This document shows positions 10,870 to 46,803 of a stretch of 64,000 bases of DNA, piece after piece. The notes under the pieces were generated by a model that saw only the letters and a list, made by a program, of their open reading frames with translations, did no database searches and was not told where the DNA came from. Origin of the DNA: Bradyrhizobium japonicum USDA 6 (lineage in GTDB: Bacteria; Pseudomonadota; Alphaproteobacteria; Rhizobiales; Xanthobacteraceae); assembly GCF_000284375.1 (NCBI RefSeq), contig NC_017249.1, forward strand, positions 2,334,001 to 2,398,000. Direction: 5' to 3'. Both the position numbers and the translations under genes were made by a program. The first letter of the stretch is position 1. Each line of letters begins with the position of its first letter.

Positions 10870-11059
10870 CTTAAATCGCAAGTGCCCGCTTCGGGACGAA
10901 AGCCGGCGACTGATGGGCCAGTTGCAGACATTCGACAGCCGTGTGACCATGGCGGCCGTTGTTGCAGCCTACGATCAAGAAATTCCAAAAACAGATGGTT
11001 GGCTGAGACAAGGCTCCGCGAGATCGACGAGGAATCGAGGCACGACGGAGGGCATATAT

Positions 11060-11971
11060 TTGAGACATTCAAGCAACGCTGCGTGCCTTGGCGAAGGTGC
11101 GGTCCTGATCGGCGGTCGATCACTAGCCTACCTTCAGGTCGGCGACCCGAACGGACCGCTCGTACTTCACAATCATGGCGGACCATCGAGCCGGCTGGAA
11201 GCCAAGGTTTTTGCGTCTCACGCGCTCAAACTTGGTTTGAGATTTGTGTGCGTGGACCGTCCAGGCCAAGGCAAATCAGATCCTCAACACGGTCGCAACT
11301 TCGCAGGCTGGGCCGCAGACCTGGAAGCGATTGCCAACGCTTTTGAGACCGATCGGTTTGCGGTCACGGGCTGGTCTGAGGGTGGTCCTTGGGCGCTCGC
11401 GGCAGCGGCGTACCTCGATCCCGCGAAGCTGATACACGTGACCAGCATCGCTCCCGGATCCTACGGCGCATTCGGTACGAATTGGGCAGCGAAGGATCTG
11501 TCCTCGACCGACGCCATGGGCGGGTTCCTTGCATTGCATTTCCGGCCGGGTTTCCAGCTCATGTATGACCTGATCGATCTCGCTGCGACGCGGTTTCCGG
11601 AGCAGTACAAGAAGGCATTGCTGAAGGCGAGCTGCCCCGCCGACCTCGCGGCGCTTGCTGATGACGATGTGTTGAGTGCGATCGTGGAGTCCGGACGCGA
11701 GTGTTTCCGGCAAGGCGTTGACGGTCTCGTGACCGATGCGCAGATGCTCTACCAACAGTGGCCATTCGACGTCACGGCGATCCATAGGCCGGTTCATCTG
11801 TGGCAAGGCAGCGCCGATACGTTTGTGCCTTACGCAGTCAACAAACCGCTGGGTGAGCGGATGCCTGGAGCGGTATGGCACGAAGTAGCCGATGGCGGGC
11901 ACTTTATCGCGAGTTCACACGCCGGCGAAATATTGGCGGTCGTTGCCAACGATCTGGCAGCAACGGCGTGA
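11060..11971 (+). CDS. Alpha/beta-fold hydrolase
   Basis: The core contains LVLHNHGGPSSRLEA (oxyanion region), VDRPGQGKSDP, the nucleophile elbow GWSEGG and a C-terminal histidine in VADGGHF. These define an alpha/beta hydrolase of about 303 residues with unknown substrate. I place the start at TTG 11060 because GGAGGG at 11047-11052 is correctly spaced and the conserved fold begins about 20 residues later. The frame stays open back to ATG 10913, but that 5' part has no ribosome site and looks noncoding. The gene is divergent from the TetR gene and has less biased codon use than the housekeeping genes. Confidence 0.8.
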   Translation: MRHSSNAACLGEGAVLIGGRSLAYLQVGDPNGPLVLHNHGGPSSRLEAKVFASHALKLGLRFVCVDRPGQGKSDPQHGRNFAGWAADLEAIANAFETDRFAVTGWSEGGPWALAAAAYLDPAKLIHVTSIAPGSYGAFGTNWAAKDLSSTDAMGGFLALHFRPGFQLMYDLIDLAATRFPEQYKKALLKASCPADLAALADDDVLSAIVESGRECFRQGVDGLVTDAQMLYQQWPFDVTAIHRPVHLWQGSADTFVPYAVNKPLGERMPGAVWHEVADGGHFIASSHAGEILAVVANDLAATA

Positions 11972-12113
11972 TTTCTGTCTCCCATCGTCCCGATGGGTAT
12001 GTCCGCTTTGGAAAGCGAAGAACTCAGAGTGAGCAAAGTCAGTCCGCTCTACCCACCAAGCGGACCTCAATGAAAGGTGTCGCCACTTCGCTGATGGGCC
12101 ATAAGCTGACCAC

Positions 12114-13757
12114 TCAGCCCTCGCGCACCCCGGCCAACCGCAGGCCCTCATAGACGCGCTCGCATCCCGCTAGATACATCGGATGGTTGCTTGGGGTGTT
12201 CGTGCGGTACCGGCGGATAGTGAAACTCGGATTGAGCGCAAGGCCCGCCTGCGCTGTGGCCCGTGCTTCATCCAACTCACCGACGAGCGCCAACGCAGCC
12301 GCGAGATTGAAATGCGCAGCGGGATAATTTCGGTTGGCCTCAAGGCTCCTCCGTAGCCAAACAAGAGCTTCGGCGTCGGCCCCCTGCCAAAATTTGGCGA
12401 GGCCAACAAACATACTCCAGACATAGACAAGTGTATCGCGAGGAGAGAGACGGAGCGCGTGCTCCATATGGGCTTCTGTTTCCCCGCCCCGACCGAGAAA
12501 AAACTTCGCAACCCCAATGCCCGCGTGCGAGCGGGCCAAATTCCGATCAAGCGCCAACGCCCGCTGGCATTCTGCAATGCCTTGAGCCGCGCGGTTCGTA
12601 AAAATTTTCACGAGGCCCATGGTGTTGTGAGCCAGGGGATGGTTCGGTGCCAAGGATAGCGCCTTCGCGAGGGTTGCCTCGGCTGCGGCGAGACGCTCTA
12701 CCCGATCGTCGGACACCAAGTTGGCACCAATTACGAAATTAGCCCATGCTCTGCCGACCAGCGCCTCAACATTTGTCGGTTCGAGTGCCAAGGCCTGTTC
12801 ATAGAAGCCGCACGCTCGTGTCATATTTTCGGGTGTTCGACCCATGTTGAGCCAAACGGCGCCTTGGAAACAAAAGTCAGTCGCGTCGGGATTGGGTGAG
12901 CGCTCCGCGCGGCGCGCTTCCACAGCAAGGAGTTCGGCATCGAGGGCGTTGGCGAGCCTCGATACGATTTCGTCCTGCATGTCAAAGAGATCGCCGATGG
13001 GCTTCTCAAAGCGCTCGGCCCACAGCTGATTGCCCGTTTCAGTGTCGACTAGCTGCACATTCACCCGGAGACGGCTGCTGCCACGCTGCACCGAGCCTTC
13101 AAGCACATAGCGGACGTTCAGCTCGCGTCCCAGCTTCACTACGTCCACGGCCTTGCCCTTAAACGTGAATGCGGTGTTGCGCGCAATTATGAACGCGCCA
13201 CTGATGCGCGACAGGTCCGTGGTCAGGCTCTCGGTCACACCATCGACGAAGTAGTCTTGCTCGGGATCACAGCTGAGGTTGACGAAAGGCAATACGACGA
13301 TGGAAAGACGAGGCGGTGAAAACACCCTTTGCGCCGTGTCGTCATTCCGCGTCAGCGAGCCAACCTGCGCAACTACGGGCCTCTGCTCTTGCACCACGCC
13401 AACGAAGCGAACGCCTTTGCGCGCCAGTGTTTTGATTAGACGCTGCTTTTCGCCCGTATCACCAATTGCGTTGCGGGCGGCGTTGAGTCGGGTCGTCAGC
13501 GCTGCATCCGACACGCTGCGCCCATTCCAGATGGCGGTGATGAGTTCGTCTTTGCTGACGACGCGCTCGCGGTTGCGGATCAGGTAGTCGAGCAGGTCAA
13601 AGACCTGTGGCGTCACTGATACGACAAGCGCCCCGCGATACAGCTCGCGCCGGTCCGTGTCGAATGCGTAGTCCTCGAAGAGATAGCGCAAGATGCCAAT
13701 CCCGTTGAACGAGGGCCCCGATACCGGGTATCGCTTTGGTTCCGCTAAAAATCGCAA
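12114..13757 (-). CDS. Winged-helix (OmpR/CadC-type) transcriptional regulator with TPR domain
   Basis: The 547-residue protein starts with an OmpR/PhoB-type winged helix (about residues 28-110; LVVSVTPQVFDLLDYLIRNR, VSKDELITAIWNGRSVSDAA). A TolB/FlgO-like segment follows (IVVLPFVNLSCDPEQDYFVD, VRYVLEGSVQR, VNVQLVDTETGNQLWAERF). The C-terminus carries several TPR repeats (YEQALALEPTNVEALVGRAW and others). This layout is common in rhizobia, usually annotated as an adenylate-cyclase-like or CadC-type regulator, but no cyclase domain is present here. No membrane helix is obvious. The start may be TTG 13691, 22 codons later. It has AT-richer codons than its neighbours. Confidence 0.85.
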   Translation of the reverse strand: MRFLAEPKRYPVSGPSFNGIGILRYLFEDYAFDTDRRELYRGALVVSVTPQVFDLLDYLIRNRERVVSKDELITAIWNGRSVSDAALTTRLNAARNAIGDTGEKQRLIKTLARKGVRFVGVVQEQRPVVAQVGSLTRNDDTAQRVFSPPRLSIVVLPFVNLSCDPEQDYFVDGVTESLTTDLSRISGAFIIARNTAFTFKGKAVDVVKLGRELNVRYVLEGSVQRGSSRLRVNVQLVDTETGNQLWAERFEKPIGDLFDMQDEIVSRLANALDAELLAVEARRAERSPNPDATDFCFQGAVWLNMGRTPENMTRACGFYEQALALEPTNVEALVGRAWANFVIGANLVSDDRVERLAAAEATLAKALSLAPNHPLAHNTMGLVKIFTNRAAQGIAECQRALALDRNLARSHAGIGVAKFFLGRGGETEAHMEHALRLSPRDTLVYVWSMFVGLAKFWQGADAEALVWLRRSLEANRNYPAAHFNLAAALALVGELDEARATAQAGLALNPSFTIRRYRTNTPSNHPMYLAGCERVYEGLRLAGVREG

Positions 13758-14687: not shown

Positions 14688-15083
14688 CACGGGAGTCTCC
14701 GTACTCGTCGGTCGATAGGAAGCTAGAATGTCGCCTAGCAAGATAGGCGACATGGTTAGGACCGAATCGTCACGTCCCGTTGTCTCAAGCGGAAGTGACC
14801 GGGGAACTAGCAGCGGCTTGTTGGTCCGCGGAGAGGCGGCTCGGCGGCTTCGTCAAACGATCAACATGACTGTTCCCGACGACGAGCCGAGAGTCTCACT
14901 GAGGACGAAGCCCGAAGCAACATCGTGTTGCTGGGGAGTCTCAAGCTCCGACATGATTTCGGCCAAGGCGCGGGCAATGTCCGCGACGGGGCAAACGGCG
15001 AAATGGCCGGAGTGCGCGCCTAGGTCCGCTTCACATCTTCAAGCGAACGTCGCATCTGAGAGGACACGCCTGAAGCTACGTCC
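14688..15083. other. Gene-poor stretch with a possible gene remnant
   Basis: No complete gene can be supported. On the minus strand an open stretch at 14853-15038 reads HSGHFAVCPVADIARALAEI and later HDVASGFVLSETLGSSSGTV, with G/C-rich third positions. It has no ATG except at 14954, which would give 33 residues. It looks like the tail of a decayed gene. Short degenerate Hyphomicrobiales repeat fragments may also be present. Confidence 0.35.
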
Positions 15084-21791: not shown

Positions 21792-23426
21792 TCAGCGCAG
21801 CGCCGCGGTGCGCATGACGAACGACCTCGTCTCGAGCTTCGCGGTCGCGCTGCCCGTAAAACTGTCGCAGGACAGGCCCTGCATCGGATCGTCGGCAAAG
21901 CCCATCGCGATCACGGCCTGCGGTTTGACGAAATAGCCGCGCAGCGCAACGGTATCCAGCTCGCCCATCAGCGTCACCGACATCGCGCGGCTGGCGCTCG
22001 GCGACAGCATCACGATCTTGAGCCAGATGCTTTCGCCTCTGGCGGCGGAGAGGCGGGTCGCGGTTGCGATCCTGCCGTCGATGCTCTTGCCGACCACCGT
22101 GTTGATCTCGGTCGCGGGCGGAAGGCCGCGCGTCGCGGCAACGGGGCGGCCCGTGCGCGGGACCGGCGCGGAGGCGGCGACGACGTTGGCGCGGTCGACC
22201 GGGGAGGCGGACGCCGGCGCGTAGGCCAGTGCCTGATAGGCCGCGCTGGAGACGCTCGCGGTTGCTTGCGGCTCGGTGGCGGCGGCGAGCGCCTGGCGGG
22301 CCTTCAGCGCAGCCACTTGCGCTGGCGTCGCCTGCTGCGGGGTCGCAGGGGTATCCCAGAAGCCGCGGGCATTGATGATATCGGCCGGGGTCTCGGGCTT
22401 GCCCTCAACAGATTTGTCGGCTGTCGGCTTGTCAGCCACGGGCGCGGGCTTCGGCTTGGGCGGTACAACGAGCTGCACATCTGCCGAAGCGAGCTGGATC
22501 GCAGCGGCGATCTGCGGCTTGGCGCGCGGTGTCGGCACCGGATCGGCCGGCTTGGCCGCGGCGGCAACCACGGTCGGCGCAACAGGCTTTGCGGCCGGGG
22601 CGGGCGCGCTCTCGTCATCCTCGTCGCTGCTCGTGGCGGCCGGAGCCGACTTGCTCCTGAACAGGGCGGCAAAGAAATTCGGCTTGCTGCCGGAATCGTC
22701 GCCGGTGCCGCGGCGCTCGATGTCGGCCTTGGCCAGCTCATAGCCCTTCAGCGGCGTACCGTCGGTCGGGACGTGAACCGTGCGGCCATCCGGGAAGACG
22801 CGGGCGAGCTGGTCATGCGTCATGCGCGGCCAGTGCCGGATGCTGCCGGTGTCCAGATGGACGAAGGGCGAGCCGGAGGTCGGATAGAAGCCGACGCCGC
22901 CGCGCTGCAGGCGCAGGCCGGCGAAGCGGATCTGCTCCAGCGGCACGCCCGGAATGTAGAAGTCCATCGCATGCCCCAGCATGTGCTGGCTGAAGCGCGC
23001 CACGCCGGAGGAGCGGCGGCGGAGCATGGCGTTGGTGGCGGGGGAGCGGTAGGAGGAGATGATCTGGATCGGCTGCTTGCCGTCGACGTCGCGATAGACT
23101 TCCCAGAGGATGTCGAACAGGCGACGATCCATGACCGTCTCGTCCTGGGTGCGCCAGTCGCGCAGGAAGTGGTTGAGCTGCTTCAGCGCGGCCTCGTCGA
23201 AACGGCCGTCGCGCTTGAAGGTGACGGTGAGGTCTTCGCCGGAATGGGTGTGGTGGAACGAGAGCGTCTTGGTCTCGTTCAGCGCGGCGGCGTCATGGAC
23301 CGAGCCCGCCGCAGCAAGCAGCAGTGCGGAAGCGAGGCCGATCCGGGATCCGGCCTTCACTCCCGCATGGGACAACGACAGCACTGCGAATTTGCGTGCG
23401 AGACCAGTCAGCACGAATGAGCCCAC
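21792..23426 (-). CDS. DUF882 / peptidase M15A family protein with long linker and C-terminal domain
   Basis: This 544-residue exported protein has an N-terminal hydrophobic segment (about residues 30-50). The DUF882/YcbK-like murein endopeptidase domain spans about residues 55-215: YRSPATNAMLRRRSSGVA, SQHMLGHAMDFYIPG and GFYPTSGSPFVHLDTG give the zinc ligands H-x6-D and H of the M15 fold. A Pro/Ala/Lys-rich linker covers about 235-400. A conserved C-terminal domain covers about 440-544. The E. coli relative (MepK/YcbK) cleaves mDap-mDap crosslinks. It is divergent from DUF1801 and upstream of the L,D-transpeptidase in orientation, so maker and cutter of 3-3 crosslinks are neighbours. Confidence 0.88.
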   Translation of the reverse strand: MGSFVLTGLARKFAVLSLSHAGVKAGSRIGLASALLLAAAGSVHDAAALNETKTLSFHHTHSGEDLTVTFKRDGRFDEAALKQLNHFLRDWRTQDETVMDRRLFDILWEVYRDVDGKQPIQIISSYRSPATNAMLRRRSSGVARFSQHMLGHAMDFYIPGVPLEQIRFAGLRLQRGGVGFYPTSGSPFVHLDTGSIRHWPRMTHDQLARVFPDGRTVHVPTDGTPLKGYELAKADIERRGTGDDSGSKPNFFAALFRSKSAPAATSSDEDDESAPAPAAKPVAPTVVAAAAKPADPVPTPRAKPQIAAAIQLASADVQLVVPPKPKPAPVADKPTADKSVEGKPETPADIINARGFWDTPATPQQATPAQVAALKARQALAAATEPQATASVSSAAYQALAYAPASASPVDRANVVAASAPVPRTGRPVAATRGLPPATEINTVVGKSIDGRIATATRLSAARGESIWLKIVMLSPSASRAMSVTLMGELDTVALRGYFVKPQAVIAMGFADDPMQGLSCDSFTGSATAKLETRSFVMRTAALR

Positions 23427-43661: not shown

Positions 43662-43748
43662 GACGTCAATTGTGCTCGGAAAACAGAAAGATAGGCCAGA
43701 TTAATGGTTCCGGCCGGTGGCTCGCAAGGCGGTGGCAAGGAGAAGGGA

Positions 43749-44516
43749 ATGCACTATCCTGTCTTGGTGAATCCCCGCAAGCCTTCATTGAGCAGGATGC
43801 CCATGAAGAAACCAAAAAGGGCAGGCGCTGCGAAGGCCAAAAAGGGCCGGAAGACCAGCGCCAGCCGCTCCAAAGCTGCCCCCAGGCAGCTGGCGAAGCG
43901 CTCGGCCAAGCCGGCGCGGCGCGGAGCGCCGGCTGCCGACGACGCCAGGGCGACCATCCGCGGCTTGCGGAGCAAGCTCAAGGAGGCGGAGCGGCGGGTC
44001 GCGGAACTGGAAGCTGCGGCCGACACCGATTTCCTGCTCGAGATTCCGAACCGGCGCGGCTTCGAGCGCGAGCTCGCGCGCGCCATCGCCTATATGAAGC
44101 GCTACCGCGCCAGCGGCGCGCTGATCGTCCTCGACGTCGATCGCCTGAAGCCGATCAACGATTCCTTCGGCCATGCCGCCGGAGACGAGGTGCTCAAGGC
44201 GATTGCGGCCACCCTGACGCGGCAGGTCCGCGCCTCGGACGTGGTCGGCCGGCTTGGCGGCGACGAGTTCGCGCTGCTGCTCTGGAATCTCAGCGAGACC
44301 GACGCCAAGGCGAAGGCCGCGACCCTCGAGCAGGCGATCGACGAATTGTCGTTTGCCTTTCGCGGTCAGCGCGTGACCGCGGGCGCTTCCGCAGGTGTCG
44401 CGCTGCTGGGGGCACAGTCCGATGCAGGCCGCGCGCTGGAGGAGGCTGATGCCGCCATGTATGTACGCAAGGCGCACCGGCGGCACGAGCCGCGGATCAG
44501 GCTGGTCAGCAACTAG
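43749..44516 (+). CDS. Diguanylate cyclase with basic N-terminal tail
   Basis: The 255-residue cytosolic protein has a very basic N-terminal region (about residues 17-48: KKPKRAGAAKAKKGRKTSAS and similar), a short coiled coil (LRSKLKEAERRVAELEAA), then a GGDEF domain. That domain has IPNRRGFERELARAI, LDVDRLKPINDSFGHAAGDE, the intact active site RLGGDEFA, and an inhibitory RxxD site (RASD) five residues before it. It should therefore make c-di-GMP with product inhibition. ATG 43749 has AAGGAG at 43737-43742. Its TAG stop at 44514-44516 uses the TA target of the adjoining IS element plus the first base of that element. Confidence 0.9.
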   Translation: MHYPVLVNPRKPSLSRMPMKKPKRAGAAKAKKGRKTSASRSKAAPRQLAKRSAKPARRGAPAADDARATIRGLRSKLKEAERRVAELEAAADTDFLLEIPNRRGFERELARAIAYMKRYRASGALIVLDVDRLKPINDSFGHAAGDEVLKAIAATLTRQVRASDVVGRLGGDEFALLLWNLSETDAKAKAATLEQAIDELSFAFRGQRVTAGASAGVALLGAQSDAGRALEEADAAMYVRKAHRRHEPRIRLVSN

Positions 44517-45700
44517 TCACATGAATCTAAAGTTCGCCACATAAAGTCTGCTGGGCTTTGTGGCAAAAGCGTTTGACGGAAGCCAAGATCTGGTCTGCGG
44601 ACTTGGTCCATTTGAAGGGCTTCGGGTTGTTGTTGTGCAATTCGATGAAGGTACGGATGTCGGCTTCGAGCTGCCTGACGGAGGTGTGAACACCTCGCCG
44701 GATCTGCTTTCTGGTGAGTTCAGCGAACCAGCGCTCGATCTGATTGATCCACGACGCGGAAGTCGGCGTGAAGTGGACATGATAGTGCGGCCGGCGAGCG
44801 AGCCACGCTTTAATCTTGGGGGTCTTGTGGGTAGCGTAGTTGTCCATGACGATATGGACAGCGAGCCCCTCAGGGATTTGAGCGTCGATCTCTTTGAGAA
44901 ACTTCAAGAACTCGAGCGCCCGATGGCGCTTGTAGCATTTGCCAATGACGAAGCCGGAAGCGACATCGAGCGCGGCAAACAGCGTGGTCGTACCATGCCG
45001 CACATAGCTATGCGTGCGACGTTCCGGCACCCCAGGCATCATCGGCAAGACCGGCTGCTCGCGATCGAGTGCCTGGATCTGGCTTTTCTCATCGACACTG
45101 AGGACAACGGCTCGGTTAGGCGGCGACAGATAAAGCCCGACAATATCGCGCACCTTATCGACGAATAGCGGATCGCTCGATAGTTTAAATGTCTGGCTGC
45201 GGTGCGGCTGCAAGCCGAACGCCGTCCACATTCGGCGGATCGTGGTGTGAGAAAAGCCAGTATCCGCAGCCATCGAGCGGATCGACCAGTGCGTTGCGTC
45301 GGGCGGCGTCGTACGCAATGTCCGCTCGATTACCTCGGCAACCTGATCATCGTCGATGGTTCGAGGGCGGCCCGGGCGGGCTTCGTCAAGCAGGCCATCA
45401 CAACGATCCTTCAAGAATCGGCGGCGCCACTTGCCGACGGTGTGTTCATGGATGCCAAGTTCGGCAGCCACAGACTTGCTTGGCAGACCATCTGCACACC
45501 GCAGGATCGCGCGGCATCGCTCAGATAGCGATCGGGCTACACGATGACGACGAACTTGCCTCTCCAAGTACGCCCGCTCCTGCGAACTCAGCACCAACGG
45601 CGCGATCGGCCGGCCTTTCACACCTGCATTCGCCACGAGCGCTCTCCTCTCTAGAGATCCGAGCGATCAACTAATGTCACGAACTTCCGTTCCAGATGAC
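44516..45700. mobile_element. IS630-family insertion sequence
   Basis: The 1,185-bp element is flanked by TA on both sides (44514-44515 and 45701-45702), the expected target duplication for IS630/Tc1-mariner elements. Terminal inverted repeats pair the first 27 bp (GTCACATGAATCTAAAGTTC...) with the last 27 bp (reverse complement GTCATCTGGAACGGAAGTTC...), with 19 of 27 matches. One intact DDE transposase fills it. Nothing suggests decay, so it may be a recent insertion. Confidence 0.88.
44527..45636 (-). CDS. IS630-family transposase
   Basis: The 369-residue transposase starts at GTG 45636 with a GAGGAGAG site. An N-terminal HTH pair (LPSKSVAAELGIHEHTVGKW, then WSIRSMAADTGFSHTTIRRM) precedes the DDE catalytic domain. 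Its acidic residues lie in LSVDEKSQIQ, VMDNYATHKT and WINQIERWFAELTRKQ. The frame is uninterrupted. The stop codon lies inside the left terminal repeat. Confidence 0.95.
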   Translation of the reverse strand: MANAGVKGRPIAPLVLSSQERAYLERQVRRHRVARSLSERCRAILRCADGLPSKSVAAELGIHEHTVGKWRRRFLKDRCDGLLDEARPGRPRTIDDDQVAEVIERTLRTTPPDATHWSIRSMAADTGFSHTTIRRMWTAFGLQPHRSQTFKLSSDPLFVDKVRDIVGLYLSPPNRAVVLSVDEKSQIQALDREQPVLPMMPGVPERRTHSYVRHGTTTLFAALDVASGFVIGKCYKRHRALEFLKFLKEIDAQIPEGLAVHIVMDNYATHKTPKIKAWLARRPHYHVHFTPTSASWINQIERWFAELTRKQIRRGVHTSVRQLEADIRTFIELHNNNPKPFKWTKSADQILASVKRFCHKAQQTLCGEL

Positions 45701-45805
45701 TAGGGCGTGTGCTCATAAATCCGAGATGTCCGCTTAGCTCCCAATAGCAGCGCAGAAGGGGACATTGCACGAGGTCCGCTGTGGGCCAAAACCGGACTCA
45801 TGCGG
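45701..45805. repeat. Inverted-repeat copy R1 (GGGCGTGTRCTCATAAA family)
   Basis: TAGGGCGTGTGCTCATAAA at 45701-45719 matches, in inverse orientation, 46784-46803 with one mismatch. Internal segments (AGCTCCC, GCGCAG, GGAC, and a GGGCCAAAACCGGAC-like end) also correspond. With the C before the IS target it restores CTAG at the outer edge. The IS630 element interrupts its junction with the diguanylate cyclase gene. Confidence 0.75.
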
Positions 45806-45967
45806 TGCAGCAAAACGCCTTGGCCGCATTCGTTTTCAAATGCCGCCTTTATGAGAATGGCGATCGGAATCCCTAGAATTCCTATGCCTTAAAGAATACT
45901 CCGTCGCTTCTGGTCAGGCTATCCGCCGAACGCGGGAAGACACATTGCGCCTAGAAAGGGCTCCGAA

Positions 45968-46630
45968 GTGAACATCAAAGCAGTCGCCAAGCCGGCCCGC
46001 ACCCTTCTTAGCCCGAATGATCACGCGTTGATCCTGATCGACCACCAGTCGCAAATGGCATTCAATACCAAGTCGATTGACATCACTACTCTGCGTACGA
46101 ATGTCGCGATGCTCGCTCGCGCGGCAAAGGGCTTCAGGGTTCCGACGATCGTCACGACGATTTCGAAGGATACCTTCGCGGGTCCGCTGTTCAGTGAAAT
46201 CGCGGATGTCTTTCCGAACGCGGAGGTCATCGACCGCACGACCTCGAACGGCTGGGAAGACGAGAATCTCATCCGCCGCGTCAACGCCATCGGCAAGGAC
46301 CGCTTGGTTATGTGCGGCCTGTGGACCTCCGTCTGTTGCAATGGTCCCGTGCTGTCGGCACTAGAGCAAGGCTATGAAGTTTATGTCGTCACGGATGCGT
46401 GCGGCGACTGCACGATTGAAGCGCATGAGCGGGCGATCGCGCGCATGATACAGGCTGGTGCACGTCCGATAACGTCGCTGGCCTATCTCTTGGAGCTGCA
46501 GCGGGACTGGGCGCGTCTTGAGACCTACGAGCTCACTGTCGGCATCGCGAAGCAGTACGGCGGCCCGTTTGGCGTGGGCCTCCAGTACGCTAAGACAATG
46601 TTCGAAACCCACGGGGGCCAGAAGGGCTAA
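45968..46630 (+). CDS. Isochorismatase-family cysteine hydrolase
   Basis: The 220-residue protein has the cysteine-hydrolase fold: ALILIDHQSQMAFN (catalytic Asp), a likely lysine in TTISKDTF, and the nucleophile Cys in MCGLWTSVCCNGPVLSA before a cis-peptide segment. The family hydrolyses isochorismate, nicotinamide or other amides. The LWTSVC pattern and the length are closest to YcaC-like members of unknown substrate. It starts at GTG 45968. It sits alone between inverted repeat copies R1 and R2, which looks like a cargo gene. Confidence 0.9.
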   Translation: MNIKAVAKPARTLLSPNDHALILIDHQSQMAFNTKSIDITTLRTNVAMLARAAKGFRVPTIVTTISKDTFAGPLFSEIADVFPNAEVIDRTTSNGWEDENLIRRVNAIGKDRLVMCGLWTSVCCNGPVLSALEQGYEVYVVTDACGDCTIEAHERAIARMIQAGARPITSLAYLLELQRDWARLETYELTVGIAKQYGGPFGVGLQYAKTMFETHGGQKG

Positions 46631-46700
46631 TTTGCAGAGGGTCTCGCCCGACACGGCAGAGGATTCCCATCCAGCAACTCTTGCGTCGCGTATTCTGAAA

Positions 46701-46803
46701 ACAGAACGAGGTCCGATATGGGTCAAAACTGCTTTGAGCACAGATAGTCCGCTGCGCTCCGGGAGCTGACCCTGATCCAGCCGTTTATGAGTACACGCCC
46801 TAG
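46701..46803. repeat. Inverted-repeat copy R2 (GGGCGTGTRCTCATAAA family)
   Basis: It ends TTTATGAGTACACGCCCTAG (46784-46803), the inverse of the R1 end with 19 of 20 matching bases. Internally it carries GGTCCGATATGGGTCAAAAC and AGTCCGCTGCGCTCCGGGAG, parts of a repeat often seen in Hyphomicrobiales. With R1 it brackets the isochorismatase-family gene. Confidence 0.75.

Follow-up and report, generated by a model that had tools for sequence, protein, structure and literature searches.

A hydrolase gene carried by a candidate mobile insertion cassette with two unlike end modules in Bradyrhizobium japonicum

MITEs are short and have no coding capacity, compound transposons carry a complete IS on each side, integron gene cassettes possess a single structured attC site, and the Pack-MULE elements of plants combine non-autonomous ends with captured host genes of many kinds. 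Among insertion sequences, IS870-like elements of the IS427 group (IS5 family) presumably prefer CTAG as their target, and a transposase stop codon supplied by the target is a trait of IS870. The IS231–MIC231 elements are reportedly described as modular in a paper dealing with them. Mobile insertion cassettes (MICs), represented by MIC231 of Bacillus cereus, mic-qnrD and mic-qnrS2, consist of two inverted repeats and a passenger gene, are devoid of a transposase and usually show a target duplication (PMC3913671). The IS231A transposase moves MIC231A1 in trans, and the passenger of this cassette differs from that of MIC231D (PMC3913671). Transporter ISs, in turn, are defined as ISs with passenger genes (PMC3129680).

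The window, i.e., the whole stretch of 64,000 nucleotides of B. japonicum USDA 6 analysed here, contains a unit of 1,104 bp between and including inverted 20-bp ends (45700–46803) that resembles a MIC in being bracketed by inverted repeats, in carrying a passenger gene and no transposase, and in showing CTAG at both borders as against a single CTAG in the empty site of a relative. This unit is very probably a mobile insertion cassette with exchangeable cargo that is moved in trans by a transposase of the IS5 family. Structurally, it would be a non-autonomous transposon whose left and right end modules differ and whose cargo is a single gene of host type, each end being composed, as proposed here, of a 17-bp terminal repeat beside the TA/CTAG target and about 70–100 bp of subterminal sequence. 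The locus comprises:

43704..44516, plus strand: GGDEF gene (PF00990, E 2.4e-37), its TAG stop codon lying within the target CTAG (44513–44516), as seen in the empty site of a relative
44517–45699, no strand: IS630-family element, CTAG at both borders (44513..45703), with ORF 44527–45636 on the minus strand (NF033545 transpos_IS630, E 6.1e-80)
45700..45719, plus strand: left terminal repeat and outer CTAG, CTAGGGCGTGTGCTCATAAA
45720..45812, plus strand: left end module, class 1, inner limit approximate (profile match 45720–45790, E 7e-14; alignment)
45968–46630, plus strand: cargo gene for a YcaC-like cysteine hydrolase of the isochorismatase family, 220 aa, GTG start (PF00857, E 3.9e-31)
46707..46783, minus strand: right end module, class 0 (class-0 profile match 46770–46707, E 7.5e-5)
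46784..46803, minus strand: right terminal repeat and outer CTAG, CTAGGGCGTGTACTCATAAA
46804..46865, no strand: right flank, which in the empty-site relative follows the left flank across a single CTAG (L095 junction)

The original prediction had placed here a single hydrolase gene between inverted copies of a repeat, with no transposase inside, and both points are borne out: the terminal 20-mers agree at 19 of 20 positions (two matches, against none in 100 shuffles) and have CTAG at their outer edges, and neither the ORFs nor protein-family searches revealed a transposase within the unit. The right end had been located correctly, while the left one begins at 45700 rather than at 45701. Related segments had also been expected to extend about 100 bp inward; a stretch of 24 nt is indeed common to both ends (45769–45792 and 46706–46729, 88%), but it is repeated directly and not inversely, and the ends otherwise belong to different classes. 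These were recognised with profiles from which both the window and the terminal repeat had been left out. The class-1 profile finds the left end, its next match in the window only reaching E 0.1. The class-0 profile ranks the right end third, behind 12069–11995 (E 2.9e-7) and 15052–14973 (E 4.2e-5), and has weak matches within the left end as well (E 7e-4 and 0.022). The right end lies outside every BLAST cluster and is class 0 by profile; model R1, which includes the window itself, matches across this whole end with E 7.7e-12.

The two better-ranking stretches (11995–12069 and 14973–15052) are further class-0-like end modules with no good terminal repeat, possibly those of decayed cassettes. 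Near them lie an ORF resembling alpha/beta hydrolases (10913–11971) and an ORF of 547 aa (12114–13757) whose N-terminal part resembles, by eye, a cargo protein of unit L039.

The cargo protein has YcaC as its nearest solved structure (PDB 1yac, E 6e-33) and scores 139.5 bits against the NCBIfam model NF041461 for YcaC; since this is under the cut-off of 310, its substrate is not assigned from the likeness. Scans of the unit yielded one promoter-like site, against 0.6 expected, and no terminator, against 1.1 expected.

In its own genome, the terminal repeat occurs at 10 places with at most two mismatches (reversed control, 2), and further inward pairs enclose genes for MgtC (L014), TauE/SafE plus DUF6494 (L015), and YkuD plus a small ORF (L011). 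With at most one mismatch, the end is present in 102 of 146 genomes of the genus, the reversed control giving 4 matches in all; the exact end pattern was matched in none of 16 genomes of the same order outside the genus. A scan of named genomes returned at least 120 stretches with the end. Among the 80 listed by title, 36 are from Bradyrhizobium and most others from alphaproteobacteria, and two of the stretches listed (L154, L195) come from MAGs assigned to other phyla, perhaps through binning errors. Around 124 exact anchors in these stretches, further ends with at most four mismatches lie inward 38 times, outward never and in tandem seven times, as compared to six, two and two for the reversed pattern. 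Four inward pairs were counted from both sides, which leaves 34 distinct pairs. In L027 (5474–5476), two ends stand back to back with a common CTAG, as if belonging to adjacent units.

Units were collected by requiring at least one end with at most one mismatch to a CTAG-containing pattern, which gave 53 distinct units (70 before exact duplicates were dropped) of 602 to 7,613 bp, with a median of 1,378 bp, and their ends were classed by single-linkage BLAST clustering. In none of the 53 units are the two ends alike beyond the repeat, 3.9 homotypic pairs being expected under shuffling (P 0.011). Moreover, class 0 is paired with class 1 in 14 units as against 3.2 expected, a number reached in 0 of 10,000 permutations. 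As a control for kinship, units with related interiors or sites were collapsed (53 to 35), after which class 0–class 1 pairs amount to 7 versus 1.3 expected (0 of 10,000 permutations), and the deficit of homotypic pairs (0 versus 1.7 expected; 1,574 of 10,000 permutations as low) is no longer telling. The end modules common to units measure about 100–119 bp on the class-1/5 side and 89–101 bp on the class-0 side. A conserved secondary structure of the ends was also considered and, with it, mechanisms based on structured ends, both of which were set aside: the class-1 fold comprises only 10 weak pairs, one of them with both-sided change, at a covariation term of -0.04, and class 0 has none.

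Sequence-only models of the end classes, which contain ends of this same genome, produced 34 class-0 and 20 class-1 matches in it (E at most 0.01), and inspection of them revealed ten inward class-0/class-1 pairs spaced by no more than 3 kb, one of which is the window unit. The terminal repeat, at up to six mismatches, flanks both ends of two (L259, L268) out of ten further stretches of this genome around such matches, the other eight having one or no repeat at the expected place. A flank search with the MgtC unit matched only G104 among 145 other genomes (E at most 1e-45), by the right flank alone and with no empty site. A second copy (93%) of this right flank in the own genome (G000:C1:4412452-4412611, L272) is possibly a paralogous site.

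CTAG is present on both sides of 29 of the 53 units, a share biased by their selection through a CTAG-containing pattern, and 10 units show CTAG on the left and CTAA or CTAC on the right. This asymmetry would fit a 2-bp TA duplication with free outer bases better than one of 4 bp, both lengths being compatible with the palindromic CTAG itself. Among 95 usable flanks (non-redundant and of 600 bases or more), 85 show xTAG, and in 41 of these the target TAG is exactly the stop codon of an ORF of 80 codons or more, as compared to 14 and 8 for the two remaining frames. Selection against gene-breaking insertions, together with the rarity of CTAG, could explain this bias toward stop codons equally as well as targeting. 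At the window locus, insertion took place at the CTAG that includes the TAG stop codon of the GGDEF gene, and target duplication kept this codon intact.

The cargo is diverse. Interior DNA is common to 18 of 1,378 unit pairs, most of them sharing transposase pieces or being the pairs L030/L144 and L167/L200. Protein families were run on selected ORFs of part of the units, and those found with Pfam are MgtC, TauE, DUF6494, YkuD, guanylate cyclase/AAA, the PF00144 serine hydrolase family, alpha/beta hydrolase, amidohydrolase, Crp-type regulator, TetR, amidase, guanylate cyclase, Cache, autotransporter, lipocalin, dodecin, TPR regulator, PNPOx, metal P-type ATPase, FTR1, HbpS, ABC substrate-binding protein, GNAT, O-methyltransferase and DUF1254/1214, to which TctC, LysR, AHSA1 and, by NCBIfam, ArsA are added. 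Substrate-binding proteins, cyclases, O-methyltransferases and GNAT recur among units. No protein family was found for the ORFs L026:3626-4117, L028:2334-3908, L055:2448-2909, L059:4652-5344, L234:3379-4014, L149:4006-4443 and L163:6669-7121. A DUF6494 stretch is shared at 92% over 241 bp by L015 (3790–4030) and L059 (5618–5858), which differ in end classes and other cargo.

Three pairs of units with homologous flanks and common end modules of about 100 bp carry unrelated cargo. L025 (G133) and L028 (G096) have flanks identical at 100% and 97.5% over 400 bp and ends that correspond over some 100 bp at either side, and their interiors are unrelated except for one 34-nt match (E 0.005), the former carrying a guanylate cyclase/AAA protein and the latter a 524-aa protein without family. 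Their joined flanks match G056 and G151 at 77–81% with a disturbed junction, which may hint at an empty site. Likewise, L169 and L181 agree at 95% in the left flank and at 83% over 220 bp on the right, end module included, around unrelated interiors. L180 and L185 come from two places in Vineibacter terrae; their flanks are homologous (81 and 87%) and their ends the same, with a substrate-binding protein in one and, in the other, a protein best matching the LipJ lipase/cyclase family, under its cut-off. L213 and L214 have common ends, with neither flanks nor cargo in common. In addition, the left flank of L030 and the right flank of L052 agree at 92% over 392 bp, so that one gene-end CTAG holds two different family elements in two genomes. 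The ends would thus act as a reusable frame that stays in place, and the comparison of these sites suggests that cargo was probably exchanged by recombination between the end modules of two copies. Recombination is preferred because, had a longer ancestor been shortened by differential deletion, the deletions would need to have ended at approximately the same inner borders each time.

The link to an IS5-family transposase comes from related units. In some of them, one end module is replaced by the 3' end of a transposase gene of the IS5 family, which leads into the repeat GGGCGYGGACTCATAA. Unit L155 encodes, besides ArsA, a 273-aa ORF reaching 303 bits against NF033580 (cut-off 110), and L035 a 267-aa transposase ORF (PF13340, PF01609) besides methyltransferase, TctC and LysR genes. 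The transposase frames of L035, L155, L052 and L061 stop at the TAG contained in the target CTAG. A search of the 53 units with the L035 protein detected it in seven, namely L035, L155 and, as pieces, L053, L019 (= L061), L052, L151 and L167. The 23 units that have an end of class 0 or class 1 all lack it, as does the window unit. Therefore, the link between this transposase and the class 0/1 ends rests on the common 17-bp terminal repeat and the target. The prediction had suggested looking for transposases with matching terminal repeats: IS5-family elements end in nearly the same repeat as the cassettes (GGGCGYGGACTCATAAC), but the IS5-type ends (GGACTCATAAC) and the cassette ends (TRCTCATAAA) are not identical. 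The L035 transposase has a single relative of full length in the own genome (89%, residues 9–267, no stop, 9125310–9126086), which ends at CTAGGGCGCGGACTCATAAC. Most likely, a transposase of this family acted in trans on the window unit; such MIC-type mobilisation is putative, whereas similar ends on IS5-family elements are seen directly.

The same elements lend some plausibility to the reading that the window unit arose by decay from a full transposon or IS, its transposase having been deleted and its hydrolase being the former passenger of a transporter IS, and that cargo is not exchanged. Related units with an IS5-family transposase and passengers do exist (L155, L035), and five further units retain transposase pieces at one end. 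However, decay of this kind is improbable given that all 23 class 0/1 units are free of that transposase, L039 containing an IS91-type transposase ORF instead, and that the same pair of ends surrounds unrelated cargos, also at one and the same site.

The insertion can be followed at the window locus itself. A query composed of the right flank and of the left flank as far as the CTAG at 44513–44516 was searched in 146 genomes of the genus. One of them, G104 (G104:C19:106596-106994), matches all 398 nt of the joined flanks end to end at 96%, with a single CTAG at the junction (GGTCAGCAACTAGGGCACGATC / GGTCAGCAACTAGGGCACGATCTTCGCG) and neither the IS630 element nor the cassette. End-to-end matches at 87–88% occur, e.g., in G082, G022, G071, G121 and G002, where the intergenic sequence varies. 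Since the site is cleanly empty in a relative, with a single CTAG, the stretch 45700–46803 is, as judged by comparing genomes, an inserted unit and not two stray repeats. The hydrolase has orthologues of at least 79% identity in 4 of 145 other genomes of the genus (G100, G059, G047 and G041, the last with two TAG in frame), all four standing at other sites; the likeness of these loci to the unit is essentially confined to the gene, and no terminal repeat with up to five mismatches was found in 9 kb at each. The idea of a plasmid-borne mobile gene was rejected, as none of 120 plasmid records matching at least part of the unit does so over more than 80% of it, and the 10 matches listed cover 54–57%, all within the gene.

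That two independent intergenic repeats merely flank an ordinary chromosomal gene by chance, which the original prediction had offered as its other reading, is very unlikely. Partnerless ends are common, the remaining exact anchors having no partner in the stretch examined, and 23 of the 34 class-0 model matches in the own genome start at model position 21 or beyond and lack the terminal repeat, so that they may be old scars or an independently living repeat. Chance flanking is nevertheless contradicted by the clean empty site, the total absence of outward pairs and the pairing of unlike end classes. The prediction had further anticipated that its mobile unit would fail if the repeat occurred mostly singly and the hydrolase stood at the same place in strains without repeats; the frequent partnerless ends go some way in that direction, but the hydrolase was not found at the window site without repeats in any of the 145 other genomes. 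Its first reading, a non-autonomous passenger transposon with one hydrolase gene, is favoured by the empty site, the inward-only pairing and the many units with the same ends and other cargo, and the label MITE-like has to be dropped for a unit this long (1,104 bp) and gene-bearing (220 aa).

The neighbouring IS630 copy landed later in the left CTAG of the cassette, outside it, and its insertion duplicated that CTAG. Four full-length copies exist in the own genome (window 44513–45703; G000:C1:6842258-6843448, 9124120-9125310 and 21901-23091), three of which adjoin a CTAG border of cassette-family elements, namely the window unit and two IS5-type ends, and the fourth (21901-23091) none. That this element mobilised the window unit has the slimmest chance of all, its adjacency, its use of CTAG and the three copies beside cassette-family ends being outweighed by inverted repeats (CTAGTCACATGAATC / CTAGTCATCTGGAAC) unlike the cassette ends and by its position outside the cassette in a CTAG duplicated by its own insertion.

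The gain of genes by large soil genomes is usually attributed to islands, plasmids and integrons, and cassettes of this kind would be another vehicle, one with readable borders. A search with 20 bp lists candidate cargo, including metal pumps, regulators, hydrolases and transporters, that may have come by one route. Moreover, same-site pairs with different cargo constitute natural experiments on cargo exchange, and the use of stop-codon CTAGs shows how units can insert without breaking genes. Tentatively, and with rather more doubt than confidence, the family could represent a form of integrase-free gene shuffling, in which unlike modules of about 100 bp remain fixed at a site, preferably a stop codon, the cargo between them is replaced, and IS5-family transposases ensure spread in trans, with a shared pool of one- to few-gene cassettes extending over many alphaproteobacteria.

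Among the papers listed for one open-access library, no published account of this cassette family, its paired unlike ends or same-site cargo replacement was found. A compound transposon was rejected, as the end modules only measure about 100 bp, the right-side ORFs have no transposase family and the IS630 element lies outside on the left; an integron gene cassette was likewise rejected, given the inverted ends on both sides and the weak or absent fold. Pack-MULEs belong to another transposase family and kingdom, and the cassettes described here carry apparently whole genes. Transporter ISs have the form of L155 and L035, i.e., a transposase plus passengers, and the window unit has no transposase. 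The likeness to IS870-like elements lies in the CTAG target and in the stop supplied by the target in L035, L155, L052 and L061. Unlike MIC231, the window family has ends of the IS5 type and not of the IS231 type, its two end modules differ from each other, and it comprises tens of units of diverse cargo in many alphaproteobacteria, with stop-codon CTAGs and replaced cargo at the same site. Thus, the build of the cassette is that of the known MICs, and its unlike end modules, stop-codon sites and same-site replacement of cargo look new.
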